Source of the DNA: an uncultured Lysobacterales bacterium
GTDB lineage: Bacteria > Pseudomonadota > Gammaproteobacteria > Xanthomonadales > SZUA-36
Length of the DNA: 10,464 bases
NCBI GenBank assembly: GCA_937995275.1
Contig: CALKKN010000290.1
Coordinates: forward strand, 1-10,464
Direction: 5' to 3'
The notes beneath the pieces are model-generated. The model made no database searches. It was not told the DNA's origin and worked only from the letters and a program-made list of their open reading frames with translations. The translations under genes and the position numbers were made by a program. The stretch's first letter is position 1, and each line of letters begins with the position of its first letter. Shown piece after piece: positions 321 through 10,406 of the stretch.

Positions 321-1337
321 TTATCGCCGCCCGATGACCTGCATCTGCCAGAGGTCTTTCCGTTCCAGCAGCAGGAAAGGCTTCATGGCCAGGCAACCGG
401 TCTTGCCGATACTCTGTTCGAGAAATCGCAGTTCCTCGAATTTTTCACGCGTGCGCTCGCCGACCGGAAGCTCGAGGCCATTCTCGCGCGCCATCAGGGC
501 GGCCTTCGCACGAATCGCGAGTTCGGTGTAAACCCTCAGGTAGCAGAGCATGTCGGCCACCACCGGCCCTTCGAATTTGCTGCGCAGATCGTCGAGGAAA
601 CGGCCGATCCTGGAGTCGGAGAACTCGCCGGACGTGATCATCGCAATCAGCCTGGCATCGGCATCGAAGTCGATTTCCAGCCACCGGTGGAGGGCCGCGG
701 CGCTCCGTTGGAAGACCAGGCCCAGCAGCGGCGGCAGCACGATCAGCGTGCCAACCGCCTGCAGCACCGGCGCCACCAGGAAATGGTTGTAGATCGAGTG
801 CAGGAACGCGGCGACGGCCAAGCCCGGCAGGTAGTACAGCGGATTGATCTTCATCTGCCGTTCGGTCAGCGTCTGCGACAGGATCGCGAAGATCGCGGTG
901 ACACCGCCATGCATGATGGCGGTGCCGAAGCCCCGCACGATCCAGACGCCCAGGCTGGCAGTGCCGAAGGCCTGCAGGTAAAAGACATTTTCAACCAATG
1001 CAAAACCGGCGCCGACCGCGAAGCCCATGATGGCGGCATCCACCAGGAATCCGATGCGATGGGAGCGGAAGAGGTAGACAATGACCAGCGCTTTGAGCAC
1101 CTCCTCGCTGATCGGCGACACGTAACGCGAGAAGCGGGCCAGATCTATGTCGAGCAGGTCCAGCAGCCAGCCGTTCACATACATCGCGGCGAAGGCCGTC
1201 AGCCCACCCACGGCGATAACGGCCAGCACGCGCTTCAGGCTGACCAGCTTGTAGCTGTCCATCCAGACCAGAACAAACAGGAAGATGACCACGGGTAGGA
1301 GGCCCACGGGCGCCCGGATGAACCACTCCACCGGCAT
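321..1337 (-). CDS. PrsW-family intramembrane protease
   Basis: A 338-residue polytopic membrane protein of the PrsW (glutamic-type intramembrane protease) family. Hydrophobic segments lie near residues 10-26, 36-55, 80-92, 100-120, 130-155, 168-190 and 195-210. The family motifs are all present: EEVLK at 78-82 (EExxK), FALVE at 112-116 (FxxxE), H143, and HSIYN at 180-184 (Hxxx[N/D]). Known family role: in Bacillus subtilis PrsW performs site-1 cleavage of the anti-sigma factor RsiW. Many other members are uncharacterised. Residues from about 212 to 338 form a charged, probably cytoplasmic, helical tail. The ATG lies 2 bp after the stop of the metallopeptidase-barrel gene and has no Shine-Dalgarno, so translation is probably coupled to that gene. 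The nearby ECF sigma/anti-sigma pair makes the membrane anti-sigma a candidate substrate, by inference only. Confidence 0.85.
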   Translation of the reverse strand: MPVEWFIRAPVGLLPVVIFLFVLVWMDSYKLVSLKRVLAVIAVGGLTAFAAMYVNGWLLDLLDIDLARFSRYVSPISEEVLKALVIVYLFRSHRIGFLVDAAIMGFAVGAGFALVENVFYLQAFGTASLGVWIVRGFGTAIMHGGVTAIFAILSQTLTERQMKINPLYYLPGLAVAAFLHSIYNHFLVAPVLQAVGTLIVLPPLLGLVFQRSAAALHRWLEIDFDADARLIAMITSGEFSDSRIGRFLDDLRSKFEGPVVADMLCYLRVYTELAIRAKAALMARENGLELPVGERTREKFEELRFLEQSIGKTGCLAMKPFLLLERKDLWQMQVIGRR

Positions 1338-1339
1338 GG

Positions 1340-4291
1340 CTAGAATATTTTCAGCGACAGCATCAGCTCGTCATCGTATTTTTTGCCGTCGATATAGCCT
1401 TGCGCATAGCCGGCCGAGAGTGTCATCGCCAAGCGATGGACGATGGTGAAGTGTAAGTCGACCTGAAGACCCAGGCTGCTGTAGGTTTCCTCGTAGGCGC
1501 TGTCCCCGATATCGGTCATCAGGACACCACCGAACAGCGAAGCGCGCAACCAGGTGAGGTAGAAACTCGGCACTCCGATTTCGCTGAAGAGGATCGGCGG
1601 CAGGTTCCACTCCAGGATCGACTTGGCGAAATCCTGTCCGCCGATCTCGTCGATCTCGAAGCCGGGGAAGCTGTAAAACTCCCGGTAGCGCTTAATCTCG
1701 CTGTCGTCCACGTAATTGTTGCCGAAGGCGCCGAAATACCAATTGGCCAGCGAATTGTCGCGATTGCCGCTGGAAATTCCGGCCGAGTTGTAAAACCAGA
1801 TTGAAGAATGCCTGATAGGCAGCGCGAAGCCGAAATCGAAGCCTGCGCGGACCTTGCCGACGAAATCGCTATCGGCGTAGTCGGCATAGCCCATCGCGTC
1901 CCAGCGAAAGCCCTTCTCGTGGTCGACCGCGCCCAGGGATTTTCGGGTGTGGCTGTAGGACAGGCCTGCGCGGCCGGATGCCAGCTTTTCGAACGTGGTC
2001 GGCACGTTCTGATTGTTGGGCAGCGTGTCCAGGTCGGTGTAGTAGGCGGCGCTCAATTCCACGTCCATGCGGCGCGGAAGTTCATAGATCAGCGCCCGGT
2101 CGTACCGCGTGATGAAGGCATTGCCCTTGCGCGCCCGCTCCGTCGGACCGAACAGGTCGTAAAAATCCGCCAGGTTGTGCCAATAGCGGAAACTCCAGTT
2201 CAACTTGCGATACTCGAGATCGACGTGCAGCCGCTCCTCGGAATCGAGCGAGCTGTCGGGACTGTAGGAAACCGTGGCAGCGAGACCGTTGAGGCCCATC
2301 GGGTCCATGATGTTCATGCGATAACCCAGCGCCGCCGTATCCCGGTAGCCCTCGATGACCGGGTAGCCGGACATCACCTCCAGCTCACGGGGCGGTTGAT
2401 ACATGCCGCGGTGGGTTACCAGGCCATCGAAATCGACTTCCGCAGGCGAGCCGACGGCCCAGTCCCGCACCCCGGGATGCTTCTTCACGATCTCGTTGCC
2501 GAGAAAACGGATCGCGCTGAGATCCTCGAGCGGCACTGGCTCGATGACGCCGGGCTTGAAGCCATCGCCGGTGTATTCGAACACCAGGAGGCGGCCGTCC
2601 GGCATTGGCACCGGCCGGAACAGGCCAGTCTCGGCGTTACTCACCGCCTCGATATCGCCCGTGGCCACCTCGTAGCGGAAAATATTGGAAATGCCCGTGT
2701 AGTACGAGCTACCGTACAGATAGCGGCCATCCGGCGAAAAAACGAAACCCTCGGGCACCGCATGGCCGAAATCAAATTGCTGCAGCGGAACCCGTTCTCC
2801 ATTTTCGAGTTCCTGGATGCGGTAAATCCGCAGGAAATGCCTGCCATCGATTGCCGCCACTGTGGCCGAAAACAGCGTTCCATCCGGTGAGACGTCTATC
2901 TCGGAGGGCACCATCCCATATGGCCAGGAATGGATGTCTTCCCATTGGTCGTAGGGTGCCGGGATGCGCACCAGCGTGACGAGGCCGTTCTGGTGCCGCA
3001 GGCCATACAGGCTGCTTGTGGTGTGGTCGAATACCAGGTCACCGATACGCGCATCCTTCATCAGCCGCTGCGGCTTGCCGCCGTCCAGGCTGACCGTCAT
3101 CAGGTCACGGTATTCGTTGTTGTCGTTGGTGTAGAAAACGGTTCGGGTTCGCTCATCGAAGGCCAGTGCGGTCACCTTGAACAGCATCGGCCCTATGACG
3201 TCGGTGATCCGTCGGGTCGAGCGATCGTCGAGGGAGTACTCCCCGATATGGGCGACAACACCCGGGTAACGGAAGGCCGCGATGACACTGTTGTTACCCG
3301 CATCGATGAACGAACGCGAGATCGAGCCCAACCCCCGTTCCGTCAATGGTTCGATGTTGGTCAGCGGGTGTTGGCGGACGGTCTCGAGATTGGCCTGCTG
3401 AAATCCGTGCTCAAATTCGATCCAGTCGTCCCAGGCGTCTTCCAGGGATTTGCCGAAAACGTGCTGGAACTGGGTTGCGTAGTAGCGTTTGCTGTCTTCG
3501 TCCCGCCGGAGCCATTGCACGACATGCTCCGGGGAATAGTGGTAAGCGAGGTAGTTGAAGAATCGGGTCCCGTACAGGTACGCATTCACGCCAACCTGGA
3601 AATCGATGCGGGTGCCCTGGGAGACTACACCGAGGTTGCTGTAGAAATGTGCATCGTCACGGACCATGGAACGGAACACCATTTCATCGTAGGCACCTTG
3701 CGCTCGGCCGATCCCACCCGCCATCCAGGTTTCGAGGAACACGGCACTGCCCTCGGTAAACCAGCGCGGTGTGACGGCTCGGGGCGATGCCAGGTAGAAC
3801 CAGAGTACAGACTCGGGATTCTCCTGGATCGGGGATGGTTTGCCGAGAAAAACCCGGCGCCAGAATTTGTCCTGCTCGTTCCACACATCGCTGCTCGCCA
3901 CGTGTACCAACTCGTGGTTCATGGTCATGAACACGCGTTCGCTGGCGGGAACCGTCTCAAAAACGCGATTCAGGGGTGCAATGTCCAACTTGATCGAGTT
4001 GGTGGGTACGGAGCCGGCCGAAGCGTTCCCCTGGTCGTAGAAATCGGTCAGCAGCAGTGTAGTCTTTTCCCACGGCTTCCAGTCGAAAATGGATTGCTGG
4101 AATTCCATGGAATTGTGGAAACTGCGGCCTACGTGAGGCACGAGATAGGTTTGCAACGGATCAACGTAGAGCAGCCTGAGTTCGTCGGTCTCCACTACAC
4201 TGAGCTCTATCGAGCCAGCACCAAGCTCACTCCCGACCAGAGCCAGCACGAGGAGCAAGAGCGCCCGTTTAGCCTTACAGCCGTGATTCAC
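1340..4291 (-). CDS. Secreted HExxH metallopeptidase / beta-propeller / Omp85-like barrel fusion protein
   Basis: I place the start at the GTG at 4291, because GGAGGG lies 7 bases before it and it opens directly into a signal peptide (NHGCKAKRALLLLVLALVG). The upstream in-frame ATG at 4327 is the alternative and would add 12 residues. From the GTG the protein has 983 residues. Residues about 28-300 hold HELVH at 126-130 and a downstream FTEGSAVF with E180, the zinc-ligand layout of gluzincins (peptidase MA-like). Residues about 320-620 contain repeated SPDG-type strands (VSPDGTL, FSPDGRYLYG), typical of TolB/WD40-like propellers. From about 660 to the end the sequence alternates aromatic and polar residues, has an FPGFEIDEIGG...LEWNLP segment near 875-898 resembling the Omp85 loop-6 region, and ends in Phe, like barrel proteins recognised by BAM. 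No POTRA domain is apparent. Exact substrate and role are unknown. It is cotranscribed with the PrsW gene. Confidence 0.75.
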   Translation of the reverse strand: MNHGCKAKRALLLLVLALVGSELGAGSIELSVVETDELRLLYVDPLQTYLVPHVGRSFHNSMEFQQSIFDWKPWEKTTLLLTDFYDQGNASAGSVPTNSIKLDIAPLNRVFETVPASERVFMTMNHELVHVASSDVWNEQDKFWRRVFLGKPSPIQENPESVLWFYLASPRAVTPRWFTEGSAVFLETWMAGGIGRAQGAYDEMVFRSMVRDDAHFYSNLGVVSQGTRIDFQVGVNAYLYGTRFFNYLAYHYSPEHVVQWLRRDEDSKRYYATQFQHVFGKSLEDAWDDWIEFEHGFQQANLETVRQHPLTNIEPLTERGLGSISRSFIDAGNNSVIAAFRYPGVVAHIGEYSLDDRSTRRITDVIGPMLFKVTALAFDERTRTVFYTNDNNEYRDLMTVSLDGGKPQRLMKDARIGDLVFDHTTSSLYGLRHQNGLVTLVRIPAPYDQWEDIHSWPYGMVPSEIDVSPDGTLFSATVAAIDGRHFLRIYRIQELENGERVPLQQFDFGHAVPEGFVFSPDGRYLYGSSYYTGISNIFRYEVATGDIEAVSNAETGLFRPVPMPDGRLLVFEYTGDGFKPGVIEPVPLEDLSAIRFLGNEIVKKHPGVRDWAVGSPAEVDFDGLVTHRGMYQPPRELEVMSGYPVIEGYRDTAALGYRMNIMDPMGLNGLAATVSYSPDSSLDSEERLHVDLEYRKLNWSFRYWHNLADFYDLFGPTERARKGNAFITRYDRALIYELPRRMDVELSAAYYTDLDTLPNNQNVPTTFEKLASGRAGLSYSHTRKSLGAVDHEKGFRWDAMGYADYADSDFVGKVRAGFDFGFALPIRHSSIWFYNSAGISSGNRDNSLANWYFGAFGNNYVDDSEIKRYREFYSFPGFEIDEIGGQDFAKSILEWNLPPILFSEIGVPSFYLTWLRASLFGGVLMTDIGDSAYEETYSSLGLQVDLHFTIVHRLAMTLSAGYAQGYIDGKKYDDELMLSLKIF

Positions 4292-4350
4292 TTCTGTCCC
4301 TCCCTCCACGATGGCATACCCCGGCATCCGCCAGATGACCTATGGATGTT

Positions 4351-4367: not shown

Positions 4368-4403
4368 AAAAAAAAACCGCCTGCACGAATGCAGGCGGTT
4401 TTT
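4368..4403 (-). terminator. Rho-independent terminator of the six-gene sigma/repeat-protein operon
   Basis: The core stem ACCGCCTGCA (4376-4385) pairs with TGCAGGCGGT (4390-4399) around a four-base loop. A/T pairs extend it to 4372-4403. Read on the minus strand it ends in a run of nine T (complement of 4368-4376). It lies about 20 bp beyond the stop of the repeat-protein gene and separates that operon from the metallopeptidase/PrsW unit. A shorter T-run on the other strand could make it weakly bidirectional, but no rightward gene approaches it. Confidence 0.9.
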
Positions 4404-4423: not shown

Positions 4424-5536
4424 TTAGCGTTCAGTTGCGCGGTTATCCATTGCGTGGTCGCGCAGTCGGCCCACAAAGGCCGGGTCACGCAACAGGCCGG
4501 AAAAGGCCGGATCGCGCAGCAGGCCGCTGAAAGCCGGGTCGCGGAGTAGACCGGTAAAGGCCGGGTCGCGCAGCAGGCCGCTGAAAGCCGGGTCGCGCAG
4601 CAGGCCGCTGAAAGCCGGGTCGCGGAGTAGACCGGTAAAGGCCGGGTCACGCAAAAGGCCGGTGAAAGCCGGATCGCGCAACAGGCCGCTGAAGGCCGGA
4701 TCGCGCAGTTTGTCGTTGAAGGCCGGGTCGCGCAGCAGACCGCTGAACGCAGGGTCGCGCAGCAGACCGGTGAACTTGTCGTCGCGCATCAAGCCGCTGA
4801 AGGCCGGGTCGCGCAGCAGGTCGGTGAAGGCCGGGTCACGCAGCAGGTCGGTGAAAGCCGGGTCGCGCAGCAGACCGCTGAAGGCCGGATCGGCGAGCTT
4901 GTCGGCGAACGCCGGATCACGCAGCTTGTCGTTGAAGGCCGGGTCGCGCAGCAGGCCGCTAAAGGCCGGATCGCGCAGCAGTCCGCTAAAGGCCGGATCG
5001 CGCAGCAGTCCGGAAAACGCCGGGTCACGCAGCTTGTCGTTGAAGGCCGGGTCGCGCAGCAGGCCGCTGAAGGCCGGGTCGCGCAGCAGGTCGGTGAAAG
5101 CCGGGTCGCGCATCAGACCGGAGAAGGCCGGATCGCGCAACTTGTCGTTGAAGGCCGGGTCGCGTAACAGGTCGGTAAACGCGGGATCGCGCAACAGGCC
5201 GCTGAACGCGGGATCGCGCAACAGGCCGGTGAATGCCGGGTCGGCAAGTGCATCACGGAAGGCTTCAATTTCCAGCGCTTCGATCATCGCCTCGTTGGTG
5301 ACGAGCATTTCGAACTCGTCGGTCTGCATGAATCGCGCCAGCGTATCGTCACCCAACACGACATCGTCGCTCTCGATCTGGCCTGCGCGATAACGCTCTG
5401 CGGGAACGATGGTGCCGGCGGCATCTTTTCCGCTCGGCAGGTAGCTGTCACCCAGGAACATGATTGCACCCGCTGCAATGACGAGCGCGCCTACGAGCAC
5501 CCAAATCTTTGCATTACCACTCTGTCTCATCTTCAT
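4424..5536 (-). CDS. Membrane-anchored nonapeptide-repeat protein, last gene of the ECF sigma operon
   Basis: The product has 370 residues. Residues about 10-29 (IWVLVGALVIAAGAIMFLG) form one hydrophobic segment after a basic N-terminus, so the protein is probably an inner-membrane-anchored periplasmic protein or, less likely, secreted. Residues 31-60 are a linker. Residues 61-96 contain four degenerate 9-residue units, and residues 97-366 contain 30 tandem units of consensus LRDPAFSGL; the last unit (LRDHAMDNR) is decayed. Only unit positions 7-9 vary much: SGL, TGL, TDL, NDK, with single ADK and VGR. There is no cysteine. AGGAG lies 6 bases before the ATG at 5536; a second in-frame ATG two codons later is possible. 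The gene starts 56 bp after the anti-sigma gene and ends at a strong terminator. I do not recognise the family. The DPxF...LL pattern loosely recalls the Asp-Pro helical motifs of STI1/ubiquilin-type domains, which is a resemblance only. A role as envelope sensor or binding scaffold is inferred from operon position. Confidence 0.9.
   Translation of the reverse strand: MKMRQSGNAKIWVLVGALVIAAGAIMFLGDSYLPSGKDAAGTIVPAERYRAGQIESDDVVLGDDTLARFMQTDEFEMLVTNEAMIEALEIEAFRDALADPAFTGLLRDPAFSGLLRDPAFTDLLRDPAFNDKLRDPAFSGLMRDPAFTDLLRDPAFSGLLRDPAFNDKLRDPAFSGLLRDPAFSGLLRDPAFSGLLRDPAFNDKLRDPAFADKLADPAFSGLLRDPAFTDLLRDPAFTDLLRDPAFSGLMRDDKFTGLLRDPAFSGLLRDPAFNDKLRDPAFSGLLRDPAFTGLLRDPAFTGLLRDPAFSGLLRDPAFSGLLRDPAFTGLLRDPAFSGLLRDPAFSGLLRDPAFVGRLRDHAMDNRATER
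4439..5248 (-). repeat. 30 tandem copies of a 27-bp coding repeat
   Basis: The array spans 810 bp in exact 27-bp steps with no frame break, encoding 30 nonapeptides. Most units keep L-R-D-P-A-F at positions 1-6. Exceptions are LADPAF (units 1 and 14), MRDPAF (unit 6), MRDDKF (unit 18) and the final LRDHAM. Silent differences between units, such as different alanine and phenylalanine codons, show that many copies are not brand new. Two longer duplications are also visible: a 56-bp identity 81 bp apart (4512 and 4593) and a 44-bp identity 108 bp apart (4917 and 5025). Confidence 0.97.
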
Positions 5537-5592: not shown

Positions 5593-6345
5593 TCAGGACT
5601 GATCCCGGTCGCTGGATACCACTACGGTGATCTGCTTCGCATCCACGGCCTGAGCGCCGCGGTCCTTGCGAAGGAATACCGCGAATTGCTGCCATCCCTG
5701 GTTCACCACACGCAAAGTCCCCCCGGAAATTGCAACCGAATCGAAGACCGGGTCGGCATCGCCAGCCGGCTGCGCGAAGCCCCCAAACAACAGGCCGGTG
5801 CCGTCCAGGCCCACTTCGATCTCGGTCCGTTCTTCGGACTCGAGATCAAAATTCATCACATATACGCCCTCCTGGTCGCGCACCGAAATCTTCCCGGAGA
5901 AGCCGTCGCCGCTAACCAGCAGGTCGTTCTTAAGAGGAACCCGTTCACCGGGCTCACTCGTCACCATCGTTCCGACCATTCGGGACGTGTCACCGTCCAT
6001 CCCGCGCTCGGGTCCGAGTTCATAGAAGCCGACCGCCAACAGCAGTCCGGCCGTAAACGCCAGGCCGGCGGGCGCGGGCTGGAACGACGAAAACAGGGTG
6101 GCGAGTGAAAATGAGGGCTTTGCCGGTCCCGGCGACAATCGGCTCACAACCTGCCAGGTGAGTCCGGGCGGAGGGTCCAGCTCGGGAGCGTTGTCCAGGA
6201 GGTGGGCCAGTTTGCGCAGCTCCGCCTGCATGGTCCGCGCTTCAGCGGAGCCTGCGAGGGCTGCCTCGAGTTCTTCCTTCTCCGCGGCATCGAGCTCACT
6301 GTCGATGTTCGCGTTGATCAGGTTCAGAATGCGCTCTTCCAACAT
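5593..6345 (-). CDS. Single-pass membrane anti-sigma factor, zinc-less type, for the adjacent ECF sigma
   Basis: The product has 250 residues. Residues 1-60 (NLINANIDSELDAAEKEELE...) resemble the anti-sigma domain that clamps ECF sigma factors. The usual ligand pattern Hxxx-CxxC is replaced: the aligned stretch reads LEAALAGSAEAR and the whole protein has no cysteine, so it should not bind zinc. Residues about 91-110 (APAGLAFTAGLLLAVGFYEL) form one transmembrane segment. Residues 111-250 would be a periplasmic, mostly beta-type domain of unknown fold. The gene begins 15 bp after the sigma stop, and its GAGGGG ribosome site overlaps that stop, so coupled translation and near-equal expression are likely. 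The function is inferred from position, topology and the N-terminal pattern. It is a candidate target for regulated proteolysis, possibly by the PrsW homologue. Confidence 0.72.
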   Translation of the reverse strand: MLEERILNLINANIDSELDAAEKEELEAALAGSAEARTMQAELRKLAHLLDNAPELDPPPGLTWQVVSRLSPGPAKPSFSLATLFSSFQPAPAGLAFTAGLLLAVGFYELGPERGMDGDTSRMVGTMVTSEPGERVPLKNDLLVSGDGFSGKISVRDQEGVYVMNFDLESEERTEIEVGLDGTGLLFGGFAQPAGDADPVFDSVAISGGTLRVVNQGWQQFAVFLRKDRGAQAVDAKQITVVVSSDRDQS

Positions 6346-6360
6346 GATGGGTTCTGCCCC

Positions 6361-6900
6361 TCAGTGTACGCCGCTGGCCAGCAGTTGGTCCTTCATCAGC
6401 TGTCGCGCCGAGTAGAGTCTCGATTTGACCGTCTTTTCAGATATCTGCAGAATCTCGCTGATCTGCCGGTAGCTGCGATCCGAAAAGTGCCGCAGTACCA
6501 ACACCGTTCTGTAGTGGTCAGGCAGCGCCATCAATGCCTCCTGCACCTGGTGTGCAAATTCGCCGGCCTCAGTCTCACGGTAGGGGCCGGGGCTGTTGTC
6601 CGCCGCAGACTCGTCGACCTGCTGGTGCCCCCTGTTACGCTTGGCCTGATTAATCGATTCATTGATTGCAATTCGGTATATCCAGCTGAAAAACTTGTAC
6701 TTCGGGTCGTAACTGTCCAGATGTTCGAAGGCCTTCAGAAACGCTGCCTGCGTCGCATCGGCCGCATCCTCCGAATTTCCCAGTATCCGGTAGGCCGCGT
6801 TGTAGAGGGGTCTCTGGTACTCGTCGATCAGCGCGGCGAGCGCCCTTCGGTCACCGCGCAAGCACCTCTTGACGAGCACATGACCCCGGCTATCGACCAC
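6361..6900 (-). CDS. ECF (group 4) sigma-70 family RNA polymerase sigma factor
   Basis: The product has 179 residues, normal for ECF sigma factors. Region 2 spans about residues 20-90, with YNAAYRILGN (33-42), DAADATQAAFLKAF (45-58) and FFSWIYRIAINESIN (70-84), the core-binding and -10-recognition segment. Region 4 spans about 118-170, with ALPDHYRTVLVLRHF (125-139) and a helix-turn-helix around YRQISEILQISEKTVKSRLYSARQ. There is no region 3. The start is GTG at 6900, where the product aligns with typical ECF N-termini (VLVKRCLRGD). Its ribosome site is weak (GGG only), and an in-frame GTG at 6879 behind GGGG is the alternative. It lies 37 bp after the STAS gene and 15 bp before the anti-sigma gene. 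Targets are not visible here; ECF factors often drive their own operon. Confidence 0.95.
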   Translation of the reverse strand: MVDSRGHVLVKRCLRGDRRALAALIDEYQRPLYNAAYRILGNSEDAADATQAAFLKAFEHLDSYDPKYKFFSWIYRIAINESINQAKRNRGHQQVDESAADNSPGPYRETEAGEFAHQVQEALMALPDHYRTVLVLRHFSDRSYRQISEILQISEKTVKSRLYSARQLMKDQLLASGVH

Positions 6901-6937: not shown

Positions 6938-7228
6938 TCAGGCGCTCCTGATCACAAACAGCTTGTCGAAGCCCGAGTAGCGGAATATGTCACCGATATG
7001 CGGATTCACATTGATCAGTTCGAGCCCGGAACGGCCGGCCATCAGCCGCTTGTGGGTACTGAGGAGAACACCGAGCCCGGCACTGGAAATGTATTCCAGG
7101 CCGCCCATGTCGAGCACGCAGCCGCCGCTGATTTCGTCCAGGAACCCCTGTGCCCGCGGCGCGCTCGCGGCATCCAGACGGCCGCTGACAACCACTTCGC
7201 CGCGCTCATTAATATCGATTTCAAACAT
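6938..7228 (-). CDS. STAS-domain anti-sigma factor antagonist (SpoIIAA/RsbV-like)
   Basis: A 96-residue single STAS domain. The signature LEYISSAGLGVLL at 44-56 contains the phosphorylatable serine of this family, most likely S49. In the known partner-switching scheme the unphosphorylated form binds the ATPase anti-sigma and frees its target, the ATPase phosphorylates it to switch it off, and the PP2C phosphatase reactivates it. All three partners are adjacent here. Its ATG overlaps the end of the ATPase gene by 8 bp (ATGTTTGA), with GAGGGG about 10 bases upstream inside that gene, so the two are translationally linked. What the released ATPase would otherwise hold (a sigma factor or another effector) cannot be read from sequence. 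Confidence 0.93.
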   Translation of the reverse strand: MFEIDINERGEVVVSGRLDAASAPRAQGFLDEISGGCVLDMGGLEYISSAGLGVLLSTHKRLMAGRSGLELINVNPHIGDIFRYSGFDKLFVIRSA

Positions 7229-7646
7229 CGTCCATAGCCCCCTCAGGCGCCATTATATTCCTGAACGTAATCTTACTGGTCCGATCGTGGTATTCGTAGT
7301 GAATCGAATCGGCCATTTTGAGGACCAGGTACAGCCCCAGGCCGCCCGGCGTCCGTTCCGACAGCGGTGCTTCGATATCGACGTCCGGGACGATGGTCGG
7401 ATCGAAGCGCTCGACATCGTAATCCGTCAGGGTCACCTCGACCCCACCGCTGACAGGCCGCATCTCCAGTTGGATGTCCCGGTCGGTTTCCGAATTGTAG
7501 GTCACCATGTTCACGAACAGTTCCTCCACGGACAGGTCGACTTTCATACGCAGGGAACCGTCGATATTCTGCTCCTCGAAGAAGCGACCGGTGTCAGCGA
7601 CGATCTGCTCGAGTTGGTCGAAGCTTCTCCTGTAGCGTTTCCTCAT
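7221..7646 (-). CDS. RsbW-like serine kinase / anti-sigma factor (HATPase_c_2)
   Basis: The product has 141 residues from the ATG at 7646, chosen because GGAGG lies 7 bases upstream and the ATG overlaps the phosphatase stop as ATGA. The GHKL ATPase fold is marked by the N-box EELFVNMV (41-48, with E42 and N46) and the glycine-rich GGLGLYLV (101-108). The middle box reads TDYDVERFDP (74-83), where most relatives have D-x-G, so the usual glycine is Asp77. Known family role: it binds a sigma factor or other effector and phosphorylates the STAS antagonist. It sits between its two expected partners. The longer open frame upstream of 7646 only shadows the phosphatase gene and is not part of this protein. 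Confidence 0.9.
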   Translation of the reverse strand: MRKRYRRSFDQLEQIVADTGRFFEEQNIDGSLRMKVDLSVEELFVNMVTYNSETDRDIQLEMRPVSGGVEVTLTDYDVERFDPTIVPDVDIEAPLSERTPGGLGLYLVLKMADSIHYEYHDRTSKITFRNIMAPEGAMDDV

Positions 7647-8938
7647 GATTCGTCCTCCGGCAGCCGCCGCACCAGTACGAGGGTGATGTCGTCTTCCTGC
7701 GCCACGCCCTGCCCGTGTTCGAAGGTGGCGTGCAGGATCTGCCGCGCGAGTTCCGCGACCGGCAGGCGGTAGTGGTATTCCAGCAGGCGGGCGACCCGTT
7801 CCTCGCCAAGCGGTGCGCCCTGGCGGTTCTCGAACTCGTAAATGCCGTCCGAGAGCAGCACCAGGACGTCGCCGGGCGCCATTTCCAGCTGCCTGGCCTC
7901 GCCCGGCTCGTCGATCTCCAGGATGCCGACCGGAAACGTGGTCGGCCGGTACCAGTCGCACCGCTGTTCGGCAGCCCCGAAGTGCAGAATGGGACCCTGT
8001 CCGCCGGAGTGGTAGCGAATGACGTGCTTACTCGGGTCGAGGAATCCCATGAAGGCCGTGACGAACCGGTCGTCCGGCAGGTCCTCCTCGAGCTGATTGT
8101 TGACGTGGCGGTACGCTTGGTCGAGATCGGCCCCGCAGCGGAAGGCGACGCGCAGCATGGCCTGCATCTGCGTCGCCGAGAGCGCCGGTCCGAACCCGTG
8201 GCCGGTGGCATCGCCCATCAGGATGAACAACTGGCCATCCAGCACGACGAGGTCGAACATGTCTCCGCCGGCATGGCCGGTGGGCAGGAACTGTCCGTGC
8301 AGGTCGTAACCCGGAACGTCGGGCATTTCGGTCGGCAGCGTGCTTATCTGGATCTCCCGCGCCAGCGAGACCTCCTCGTCGAGGCGCTCGTTCAGCAACA
8401 ACGCCTCCATCAGTTGGGCGCGCTGCACGGCGACGGCGCATTGCGCCGCCAACGCGGAAGCCACGAGTTCGTCGTTGCCGTCAAAAACCCCGATGAGCTT
8501 ATTCAGCAGCTGGAGCACGCCGACAGGCTGCTTCTCCCATCCCAACAGGGGTACATTCAGGACCGATTGCGTTTTGTAGCCCGTCGACTTGTCGACCGCG
8601 CCGAGAAAGCGGGGATCGCCATAGGCGTCAGCGACGTTGATTATCTCGCGGCCGGCCAGGCACTGGCCGACCAGCCCGTCCCCAATGGCGATGCGGGGCG
8701 GAAGCTTGATGTTGGGGACCTTCATGACGAGGTCGCCGCTGTCGGGTTCGTACAACCAGATGGCGGCCTTGTCGGCCGTCAGCACGGACCTGCCGGCATC
8801 AACCACCTCGCTCAGCATCTGCAGCAGGTCCAGCGGTTGAGCCAGTTTCTGCGCCACGTCCAGGATGCGCGCCACAGCGTCCTGGCCCAGAGTCGGAGTT
8901 GTGGTCAGCGCACTCATTGCAGGTTGGCGGGCCTCCAT
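7643..8938 (-). CDS. GAF domain-PP2C (SpoIIE/RsbU-type) serine phosphatase
   Basis: The product has 431 residues. Residues about 20-175 form a GAF domain (AAIWLYE, VMKVPN, SVLNVPLLGWEKQPVGVLQLLNK), a small-molecule or redox sensor fold whose ligand cannot be told. A coiled linker (about 176-200, VSLAREIQ) is typical of the join to SpoIIE phosphatases. Residues about 205-428 are the PP2C domain with the metal-binding motifs intact: GGDMFD (224-229), MGDATGHG (241-248), LSDGIYE (362-368) and EDDITLVLVR (416-425). It should dephosphorylate the STAS protein encoded two genes downstream. It is the first gene of the leftward operon. The start is uncertain: ATG 8938 has GGAG only 2 bases away, and ATG 8917 (MSALTTTP) is an alternative. 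Confidence 0.95.
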   Translation of the reverse strand: MEARQPAMSALTTTPTLGQDAVARILDVAQKLAQPLDLLQMLSEVVDAGRSVLTADKAAIWLYEPDSGDLVMKVPNIKLPPRIAIGDGLVGQCLAGREIINVADAYGDPRFLGAVDKSTGYKTQSVLNVPLLGWEKQPVGVLQLLNKLIGVFDGNDELVASALAAQCAVAVQRAQLMEALLLNERLDEEVSLAREIQISTLPTEMPDVPGYDLHGQFLPTGHAGGDMFDLVVLDGQLFILMGDATGHGFGPALSATQMQAMLRVAFRCGADLDQAYRHVNNQLEEDLPDDRFVTAFMGFLDPSKHVIRYHSGGQGPILHFGAAEQRCDWYRPTTFPVGILEIDEPGEARQLEMAPGDVLVLLSDGIYEFENRQGAPLGEERVARLLEYHYRLPVAELARQILHATFEHGQGVAQEDDITLVLVRRLPEDES

Positions 8939-9119: not shown

Positions 9120-9662
<543 letters not shown>

Positions 9663-9722
9663 CGGGCCCTCCCGGCATCATAATTTTTGGAGGGGTAACT
9701 GGTGCTTTCCAGGAGGTAAACC

Positions 9723-10406
9723 ATGCTTCAGAAACTCGCAGTCGTTCCGTTAATGGCCCTGCTGATCGCGCCGGCAGCCATCGCCCAGGCCAGCGAGGCG
9801 ACCCCCGAAGTATCCATGGAGGGCCTCGAACTGGTCGAAAAGGACCGGCGGGGCGAGATCTACGCCGACCCCGGCATCGACTGGAGCGTTTACAGCCGCA
9901 TCCAACTCGACGAGGCGACGGTCGCCTTTCGCAAAAACTGGCAGCGTGATCAGAACCGCGCCCAGTCATTCAAAATCAGGACCGAAGACATGGAGCGCAT
10001 CAAGCGTGAACTGTCGACCCTGTTCGGCGAGGTCTTCGCAGGCGAACTGACCGGCAATGGGGGCTACACGCTCACCGATGAGGTCGCCGAAGACGTGATG
10101 CGCATCGCGCCCCATATCGTCGACCTAGATGTCTACGCCCCGGACAGCCGCACGTATCCCGGGCGGACCAGGTCCTATACCCAGCAGGCAGGCCGCATGA
10201 CGCTGCAGCTCGAAATCTTTGACTCGGTCACCGGCGACCTGATCGCGAAGACGAGCGACCGGCAGGAGGCGCCGCGCCGCAACTACATGCAGTGGACGAC
10301 CTCGGTCACGAACCGCACCGAGGCGCGACGCATGATCGAGCGGTGGGCCACGGACTTCCGCGAGCGCCTCGATCAAGCCCGCAGCGAAGGCGGCGCCTCA
10401 AGCTGA
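9723..10406 (+). CDS. Exported DUF3313-like protein of unknown function
   Basis: The product has 227 residues. The first 23 (MLQKLAVVPLMALLIAPAAIAQA) form a Sec signal peptide with a likely cut after AQA. There is no lipobox, although many family members are lipoproteins. The mature part holds a DUF3313-like core: GEIYADPGIDWSVYSRIQLDE (about residues 44-64), a central VDLDVYAPDS (residues 133-142), then MTLQLEIFDSVTGDLIAKTSDR and a helical C-terminus (RMIERWATDFRERLD). The family has no assigned function that I can state. A strong AGGAGG lies 6 bases before the ATG. The gene follows the peroxiredoxin gene by 60 bp without an evident terminator between them, so the two may be cotranscribed and peroxide-induced. 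The family call is from the pattern of the conserved strands and is moderately sure. Confidence 0.72.
   Translation: MLQKLAVVPLMALLIAPAAIAQASEATPEVSMEGLELVEKDRRGEIYADPGIDWSVYSRIQLDEATVAFRKNWQRDQNRAQSFKIRTEDMERIKRELSTLFGEVFAGELTGNGGYTLTDEVAEDVMRIAPHIVDLDVYAPDSRTYPGRTRSYTQQAGRMTLQLEIFDSVTGDLIAKTSDRQEAPRRNYMQWTTSVTNRTEARRMIERWATDFRERLDQARSEGGASS

Follow-up and report, generated by a model that had tools for sequence, protein, structure and literature searches.

A gene whose product is built largely of near-identical nonapeptides, encoded next to an extracytoplasmic function (ECF) sigma factor and its anti-sigma factor, raises the question of what such a protein could do in an envelope signaling operon. 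The gene, here called REP, lies at positions 4424 to 5536 on the minus strand of a 10,464-nucleotide stretch of DNA from an uncultured Lysobacterales bacterium (contig CALKKN010000290.1 of assembly GCA_937995275.1), referred to as the window. Among the literature matches listed, none was recognizable as dealing with an array or an operon of this kind, as judged from titles and the first parts of abstracts. We found that REP is a real, conserved component of the ECF sigma system with a well-supported anatomy. As for its mechanism, we tentatively propose that REP could be a periplasmic arm whose anti-sigma-like stem couples the predicted outer-membrane protein prop995 to proteolysis of the anti-sigma factor by PrsW, a reading we consider possible rather than likely. 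What is new here, both testable and surprising, is the link between a repeat arm and an anti-sigma stem.

The REP open reading frame (ORF) encodes 370 amino acids (aa) and has AGGAGA just 5′ of its ATG. Its one hydrophobic segment, already recognized as a membrane anchor in the initial annotation, is a single N-terminal helix placed by hydropathy at about residues 12 to 30 (5447 to 5503, minus strand); the top hydrophobic window begins at residue 11 (Kyte-Doolittle value of 2.49), and AlphaFold2 predicted a helix at residues 6 to 27 with a low predicted local distance difference test (pLDDT) score. The net charge is +3 over residues 1 to 11 and −10 over residues 31 to 96, so that, by the positive-inside rule, about 11 residues ahead of the helix would be cytoplasmic and the array would be periplasmic. 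Behind the helix come a conserved stem at residues 41 to 63 (GTIVPAERYR...VVLGD; 5348 to 5416, minus strand) and, at residues 97 to 366 (4439 to 5248, minus strand), an array of 30 nonapeptides for which a short-helix solenoid is predicted. Identity at lag 9 was 0.76 versus a shuffle maximum of 0.19 (lags 3 to 30, 200 shuffles), and Tandem Repeats Finder returned a 27-bp period over 4456 to 5243. The first six positions of the unit are nearly invariant (L in 28, R in 28, D in 30, P in 28, A in 29, and F in 29 of the 30 units); position 7 is mostly S, T, or N, position 8 G or D, and position 9 L, K, or R. The repeat number and placement, the 27-bp phase, and the confinement of variation to positions 7 to 9 are all as the initial annotation had described them. 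A plus-strand ORF within the array (4662 to 5393) was regarded as arising merely from the codon periodicity.

REP matches were found in 15 of the 101 relatives searched, its own genome included. A search with an 11-row alignment recovered orthologues in 14 of 39 family genomes, again counting its own, and in at least 2 of 369 class genomes (its own and G368), the latter being a lower bound because the class-wide search missed a ten-residue array in G208. A Chromatiales bacterium metagenome-assembled genome (MAG; JAHEFT010000031.1) was among the related loci found. One further protein (P0001), which matches PF11271 (which we take to be DUF3068) and has no stem, was excluded from the orthologue count. 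The REP gene follows the anti-sigma gene in all 15 loci with an upstream side (window, L029 to L033, L035 to L042, and L120), so that the recurrence beside ECF sigma and anti-sigma genes on which the initial annotation had staked its proposal was borne out. Likewise, prop995 follows REP in all 13 loci with a downstream side (window, L029 to L034, L036, L039, L041, L043, L119, and L120). Here, L042 and L043 represent separate fragments of a single genome, and the sequences of L035, L037, L038, L040, and L042 end in or just past the array. The full gene order is PP2C-HATPase-STAS-ECF-antisigma-[REP + prop995]-PrsW, all on the minus strand in the window.

The stem of REP resembles that of the anti-sigma factor. 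Following the helix, REP proteins carry the pattern [A/S/T]GT[I/V][V/M/A]...R, typically AGTIVPAERYR..Q...DV.LGD, in which GT, PAER, GD, and Q.D are invariant in 11 aligned orthologues. The anti-sigma factor of the window has a juxtamembrane stem at residues 125 to 144 (5914 to 5973, minus strand) that begins with GTMV. At a similar distance from the helix, GT occurs in 22 of 23 anti-sigma stems (GS in L040), followed by M, I, V, L, or T, and it is also present in the 7 anti-sigma factors that come from operons lacking REP. HHalign aligned the REP stem with the anti-sigma stem over 37 columns with a score of 31.4 (P of 2.2e-5) and a probability of 76.5, a value that leaves the similarity not beyond doubt. 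For this comparison, 17 of the 20 REP-stem rows were used, leaving out the lipoproteins of L121 and L122 and the L041 protein. Shuffling all anti-sigma columns gave scores of at most 17.9, and shuffling the columns behind the helix gave at most 19.3, with 0 of 100 shuffles reaching 31.4 in each case; 91 windows of PrsW, PP2C, prop995, ECF, and HATPase scored 17.7 or less. Thus, REP possesses a membrane helix and a juxtamembrane stem like those of the operon's anti-sigma family, and the simplest reading of the sequences is that the two stems may share either their origin or their reader.

Two papers (PMC5358783 and PMC10202637) describe PrsW as the site-1 protease of Bacillus subtilis RsiW. REP resembles such class I single-pass anti-sigma factors in having one membrane helix and a cytoplasmic N terminus, in the alignment of its stem with the anti-sigma factor of its own operon, and in lying beside ECF sigma and PrsW genes. 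In contrast to RsiW, it has no sigma-binding domain, since only some 11 residues precede the helix, and its periplasmic part is a nonapeptide array. The gene at 321 to 1337 (minus strand) encodes a PrsW-family intramembrane protease scoring 69.2 bits against Pfam PF13367 (cut-off, 23.5); against the NCBIfam PrsW equivalog it scored 33.2 bits, below the cut-off of 225, which makes it a family member and not an equivalog. No PrsW match was found in 16 of the 39 family genomes. As a separate observation, L123 (G004:C53) and L124 (G006:C22), which belong to different genera, carry the same neighbor proteins, whose starts are identical, along with the same second paralogue of PrsW; this shared DNA is probably due to contamination in one MAG.

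The same features could come from a dummy anti-sigma factor, that is, a protein derived from an anti-sigma helix and stem, without the sigma-binding domain of its ancestor, that would compete as a PrsW substrate and so titrate the protease; the array would just position the stem or put it under tension. The stem similarity above all controls, the very short cytoplasmic part, and an array sequence free to change are consistent with this idea, as is the finding that PrsW always follows in those compared loci whose contigs are long enough to show it, except for a prop995 copy outside the operon (L122). Nevertheless, we regard it as unlikely: it leaves unexplained both the joint presence and absence of REP and prop995 and the retention of a helical nine-residue scheme.

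The joint occurrence of the two genes was evident when 17 intervals were scored. Both are present in nine (window, L029 to L033, L036, L039, and L120), and in all nine, which are complete, the cassette lies between the anti-sigma and PrsW genes. None has just one of the two genes, with a caveat for G219 (L121) considered below. In operons without the cassette, the anti-sigma gene is followed directly by PrsW (L111 to L117, and also L118, where the anti-sigma gene is cut by the contig end). G009 and G012 could not be judged: prop995 was not found (a weak 29% match in G012), but the contigs with REP or PrsW end where it would be due. In a tree of the four upstream proteins, built from the 22 loci with all four genes and having one deep node with a support of 0.19, loci without the cassette fell in three places (L111 with L112; L113, L114, L116, and L117; and L115), and L115 grouped beside the cassette-bearing L033 with a support of 0.99.

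The window has an intrinsic terminator after REP (4372 to 4403, minus strand), and one was present between REP, or the lipoprotein in its place, and prop995 in 10 of the 16 intervals scanned. In L115, about 80 bp of the REP-prop995 intergenic region, including the terminator, persists between the anti-sigma and PrsW genes, with both cassette genes gone; this scar aligned with L033 at a score of 80, versus a maximum of 22 in 200 shuffles. The scar, together with the nesting of L115 among cassette-bearing loci, argues for loss of the cassette, probably through two separate removals; it is possible, though less simple, that the two genes were instead inserted on either side of a terminator that was already there. 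Behind the terminator and 5′ of prop995, a sigma70-like −10 element, AGTATGCT, was seen by eye in L031, L032, L036, and L043, and prop995 and PrsW may form a separate transcript. Reading the upstream sequences by eye established no ECF-type promoter motif. The initial annotation had called REP the last gene of the operon, which is correct insofar as it is the last before the terminator (4403 to 4372), but the co-oriented genes at 4327 to 1340 and 1337 to 321 follow. It had also placed REP properly with the ECF sigma and anti-sigma genes, missing prop995, PrsW, the upstream partner-switch genes, and the anti-sigma-like stem. Its observation was confirmed, and its interpretation partly supported.

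A two-gene cassette might equally be expected if REP had a structural role in the periplasm, spacing or anchoring prop995 for its assembly or stability, and were merely co-regulated with the sigma operon. Units that change freely, one hydrophilic SDK array, and the large size of the prop995 family, in which three distant homologues (L125 to L127) lack an upstream gene for a stem or an array, fit such a role. On the other hand, a stem common to REP and the anti-sigma factor would then have no reason, and the invariable location of the cassette between the anti-sigma and PrsW genes also speaks against it; we consider a pure spacer quite unlikely.

The cassette partner, prop995, is a 995-aa protein (1340 to 4327, minus strand) with a signal helix, an HExxH...E peptidase-like domain, a TolB-like beta-propeller, and a C-terminal region predicted to form a barrel. 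Its fold was predicted from the window sequence and 42 of at least 120 relatives. A prop995 homologue is also present in Elongatibacter sediminis, a cultivable relative. The model contains a propeller of the TolB-type fold and, from residue 650 on, 17 beta-strands of at least 7 residues, a predicted barrel. The protein is TolB-like rather than TolB, as it scored 21.1 bits against the NCBIfam TolB equivalog (cut-off, 343.15). Omp85_2 was matched below the cut-off (E of 0.036), and the distant homologue L127 passed Omp85 (25.8 versus 24 bits). Pfam Peptidase_MA_2 was absent from the matches of the window protein and stayed below its cut-off of 32.4 bits in L121 (15.6) and L127 (15.4). H138, E139, H142, and E192, an HExxH with a downstream Glu, are invariant in 43 aligned close relatives. 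The TolB/Pal/TolA system offers a parallel, in that TolA extends a long helical arm from the inner membrane, as REP may do, and TolB has a propeller like that of prop995. Prop995, however, joins its propeller to a peptidase-like domain and a predicted barrel, and the arm in the present case is a nonapeptide array encoded in a sigma operon. In L036 (G008, 9668 to 12649), a TAG stop interrupts prop995 while REP is intact, which may reflect either a sequencing error or recent decay. The second prop995 copy of G219 (L122:4587-7942) lies beside a 108-aa lipoprotein with AATITAAKR, and no sigma-operon gene was found nearby.

The invariant residues, a run of near-identical sites, and the cassette arrangement would suit a relation in which REP is cargo or substrate of prop995, with the peptidase-like domain cutting the array and fragments or loss serving as the signal. 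This appears improbable to us: the units diverge strongly between species while prop995 stays 57 to 73% identical to the window's copy in one set of related loci, and the second His is lost in the distant L122 copy, where HExxH is altered to HETMS.

We then come to the array itself. At the DNA level, 28 of the 30 units in the window are distinct, with a mean between-unit identity of 0.75, and over all 30 units the proportion of synonymous differences (pS) is 0.49 and that of nonsynonymous differences (pN) 0.16. These values argue that the array is old and held at the protein level rather than a product of recent slippage, and it looks constrained as protein; phase variation was disfavored because so many units are distinct. 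Across 17 arrays with enough units, pN/pS was 0.11 to 0.43 (units matching their own array consensus at less than 55% were skipped, a filter that removed none from the window; the number of units was too small in L042, the triplets of L041 were treated as nonapeptides, L031 is saturated at synonymous sites, and codon bias was uncontrolled). Among orthologues, the unit sequence is replaced wholesale, while the nine-residue period and the helix-cap/Phe pattern are kept in most. In the F-3 cap analysis, L043, L119, and P0002 lacked a cap at ≥76%, and L038, L041, and L042 had too few Phe residues. The period itself differs between the sister loci L037 and L042 (9 and 10), and L119 has ten-residue units. 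Of the suggestions in the initial annotation, a binding surface that depends specifically on the LRDPAF sequence is therefore not supported. Low-complexity drift, in which an ORF grew by repeat slippage without a selected function, would account for unit sequences unstable between species and for the SDK triplets of L041, but it is very improbable in view of the pN/pS range, the stem residues invariant in 11 orthologues, and the conserved position and period.

AlphaFold2 models of REP, built from 4 sequences, predicted one short helix per unit with the units stacked as a rod, which agrees with the regular solenoid, rather than disorder, of the initial annotation. The model had no significant match in the PDB, which does not by itself mean a new fold. 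STI1-HOP_DP (PF17830) scored 61.9 bits over the whole of REP, above the gathering cut-off, and no single stretch passed. The 11 orthologues matched 24 Pfam families (E up to 0.1), including PF17830 in 3 of 11, DUF826 as the best in 5 of 11, and PF23195 UBQLN1, itself ubiquilin-like; such scatter indicates that the PF17830 match is the summed weak resonance of a periodic sequence. Membership in STI1-HOP_DP was therefore rejected, as no self-standing domain of about 55 residues is kept in orthologues, although DP-containing short helices are common to both. NCBIfam TPR_END_plus (33.7 versus 32 bits, no single stretch) was regarded as the same repeat artifact, and PDB sequence matches (Spt5, E of 2e-7, and protein A chains) as other repetitive sequences. 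Designed helical repeat fibers (8g8i and 8eoz) and the TALE-like BurrH (4cj9) resemble the REP model in being helical solenoids, with no significant score. The calcium nonapeptide unit of RTX proteins, GGxGxDx(L/I/F)x, likewise has nine residues. RTX repeats are glycine/aspartate rich and bind calcium, whereas REP has no GG in any of its 30 units and is predicted to be helical. In accord with the initial annotation, the array thus belongs to no named repeat family.

Upstream of REP, the operon encodes an anti-sigma factor with a single membrane helix and a periplasmic domain (5593 to 6345, minus strand), assigned from its alignment and from subthreshold matches to NCBIfam antisigma (E of 8.5e-9, 35.7 bits; cut-off, 100) and zf-HC2 (18.9 bits; cut-off, 22.2). 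Farther upstream on the same strand lie the ECF sigma factor (6361 to 6900; Pfam Sigma70_r2 and Sigma70_r4_2 above cut-off), a STAS anti-anti-sigma-like protein (6938 to 7228; STAS_2, 49.4 bits), an RsbW-like HATPase (7221 to 7646, start estimated from orthologues; HATPase_c_2, 56.1 bits), and an RsbU-like GAF and SpoIIE (PP2C) phosphatase (7643 to 8938; SpoIIE, 133.5 bits; GAF, 55.7 bits). Divergent redoxin and DUF3313 genes (9120 to 10406, plus strand) border the operon, with the same neighbors in L029, L030, L111, and L112.

Returning to the periplasmic-arm proposal, it draws on the gene order, the joint presence and absence of REP and prop995, the stem similarity, the periodicity, and the constraint on the units. 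The predicted models would add a capped short helix per unit, the stacking into a rod, the propeller, and the barrel. In the proposed scheme, REP would be an inner-membrane-anchored periplasmic arm whose stem docks on the inner-membrane reader of the anti-sigma stem, most probably PrsW, in keeping with the site-1 role of the latter toward RsiW. The rod would extend toward the outer membrane and prop995, and the TolB-like propeller and peptidase-like domain of prop995 would lie on the periplasmic side. Changes in prop995, or in how far apart the membranes are, might pass along the arm and free or block PrsW, and this would set anti-sigma cleavage and sigma release. The contacts with PrsW and prop995 and the direction of the signal are thus presumed, and in operons that lack the cassette the same PrsW switch would operate with no input from the outer membrane.

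Several observations weigh against this proposal. The anti-sigma segment scoring 31.4 was picked after the motif had been noticed; fixed-step segments of a second anti-sigma alignment reached 24.9 at best, which is lower yet above every control. The REP model was derived from 4 sequences only, and the anchor and stem (residues 1 to 16 and 21 to 68) have pLDDT values below 50. G001, the only same-genus genome compared (89% complete), had no match to REP, prop995, or PrsW. The cassette is lacking from 8 of the 17 scored intervals, whose operons presumably still work, and a single deletion can remove neighboring genes that have no functional link, a possibility against which only L115 argues. In L123 and L124, the two stretches inspected, which have the same DNA neighbors, no stem-bearing gene lies next to a second paralogue of PrsW (46% identical). 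In the distant G219 (L121), prop995 and PrsW are accompanied by a 99-aa lipoprotein carrying AAGTIMAAKR and no array in the REP position, and in L041 (G003, 4905 to 5336) that position holds an SDK triplet array without the Phe pattern or the QTD motif, which is either degenerate or a truly different arm. These two cases imply that the solenoid is not indispensable.

To our knowledge, there are few Gram-negative systems (RseA/DegS and FecR) in which it is known how information from the outer membrane reaches anti-sigma proteolysis at the inner membrane. Should the arm proposal hold in full, REP might represent a new envelope relay. Its decoy anti-sigma stem would be carried by a solenoid of interchangeable nonapeptides that spans the periplasm, and the protein would form a mechanical connection between a TolB-propeller/peptidase barrel in the outer membrane and an intramembrane site-1 protease, with selection keeping the helix-cap scheme while the sequence turns over; we regard this larger claim as rather doubtful. 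The array, with its repeat scheme kept and its sequence replaced, is useful for studies of repeat-protein design and evolution, and the GT...AER stem provides a testable residue-level hypothesis. The operon, in turn, constitutes a natural with/without comparison, in which the same PrsW-sigma switch occurs with and without the arm-plus-barrel cassette.
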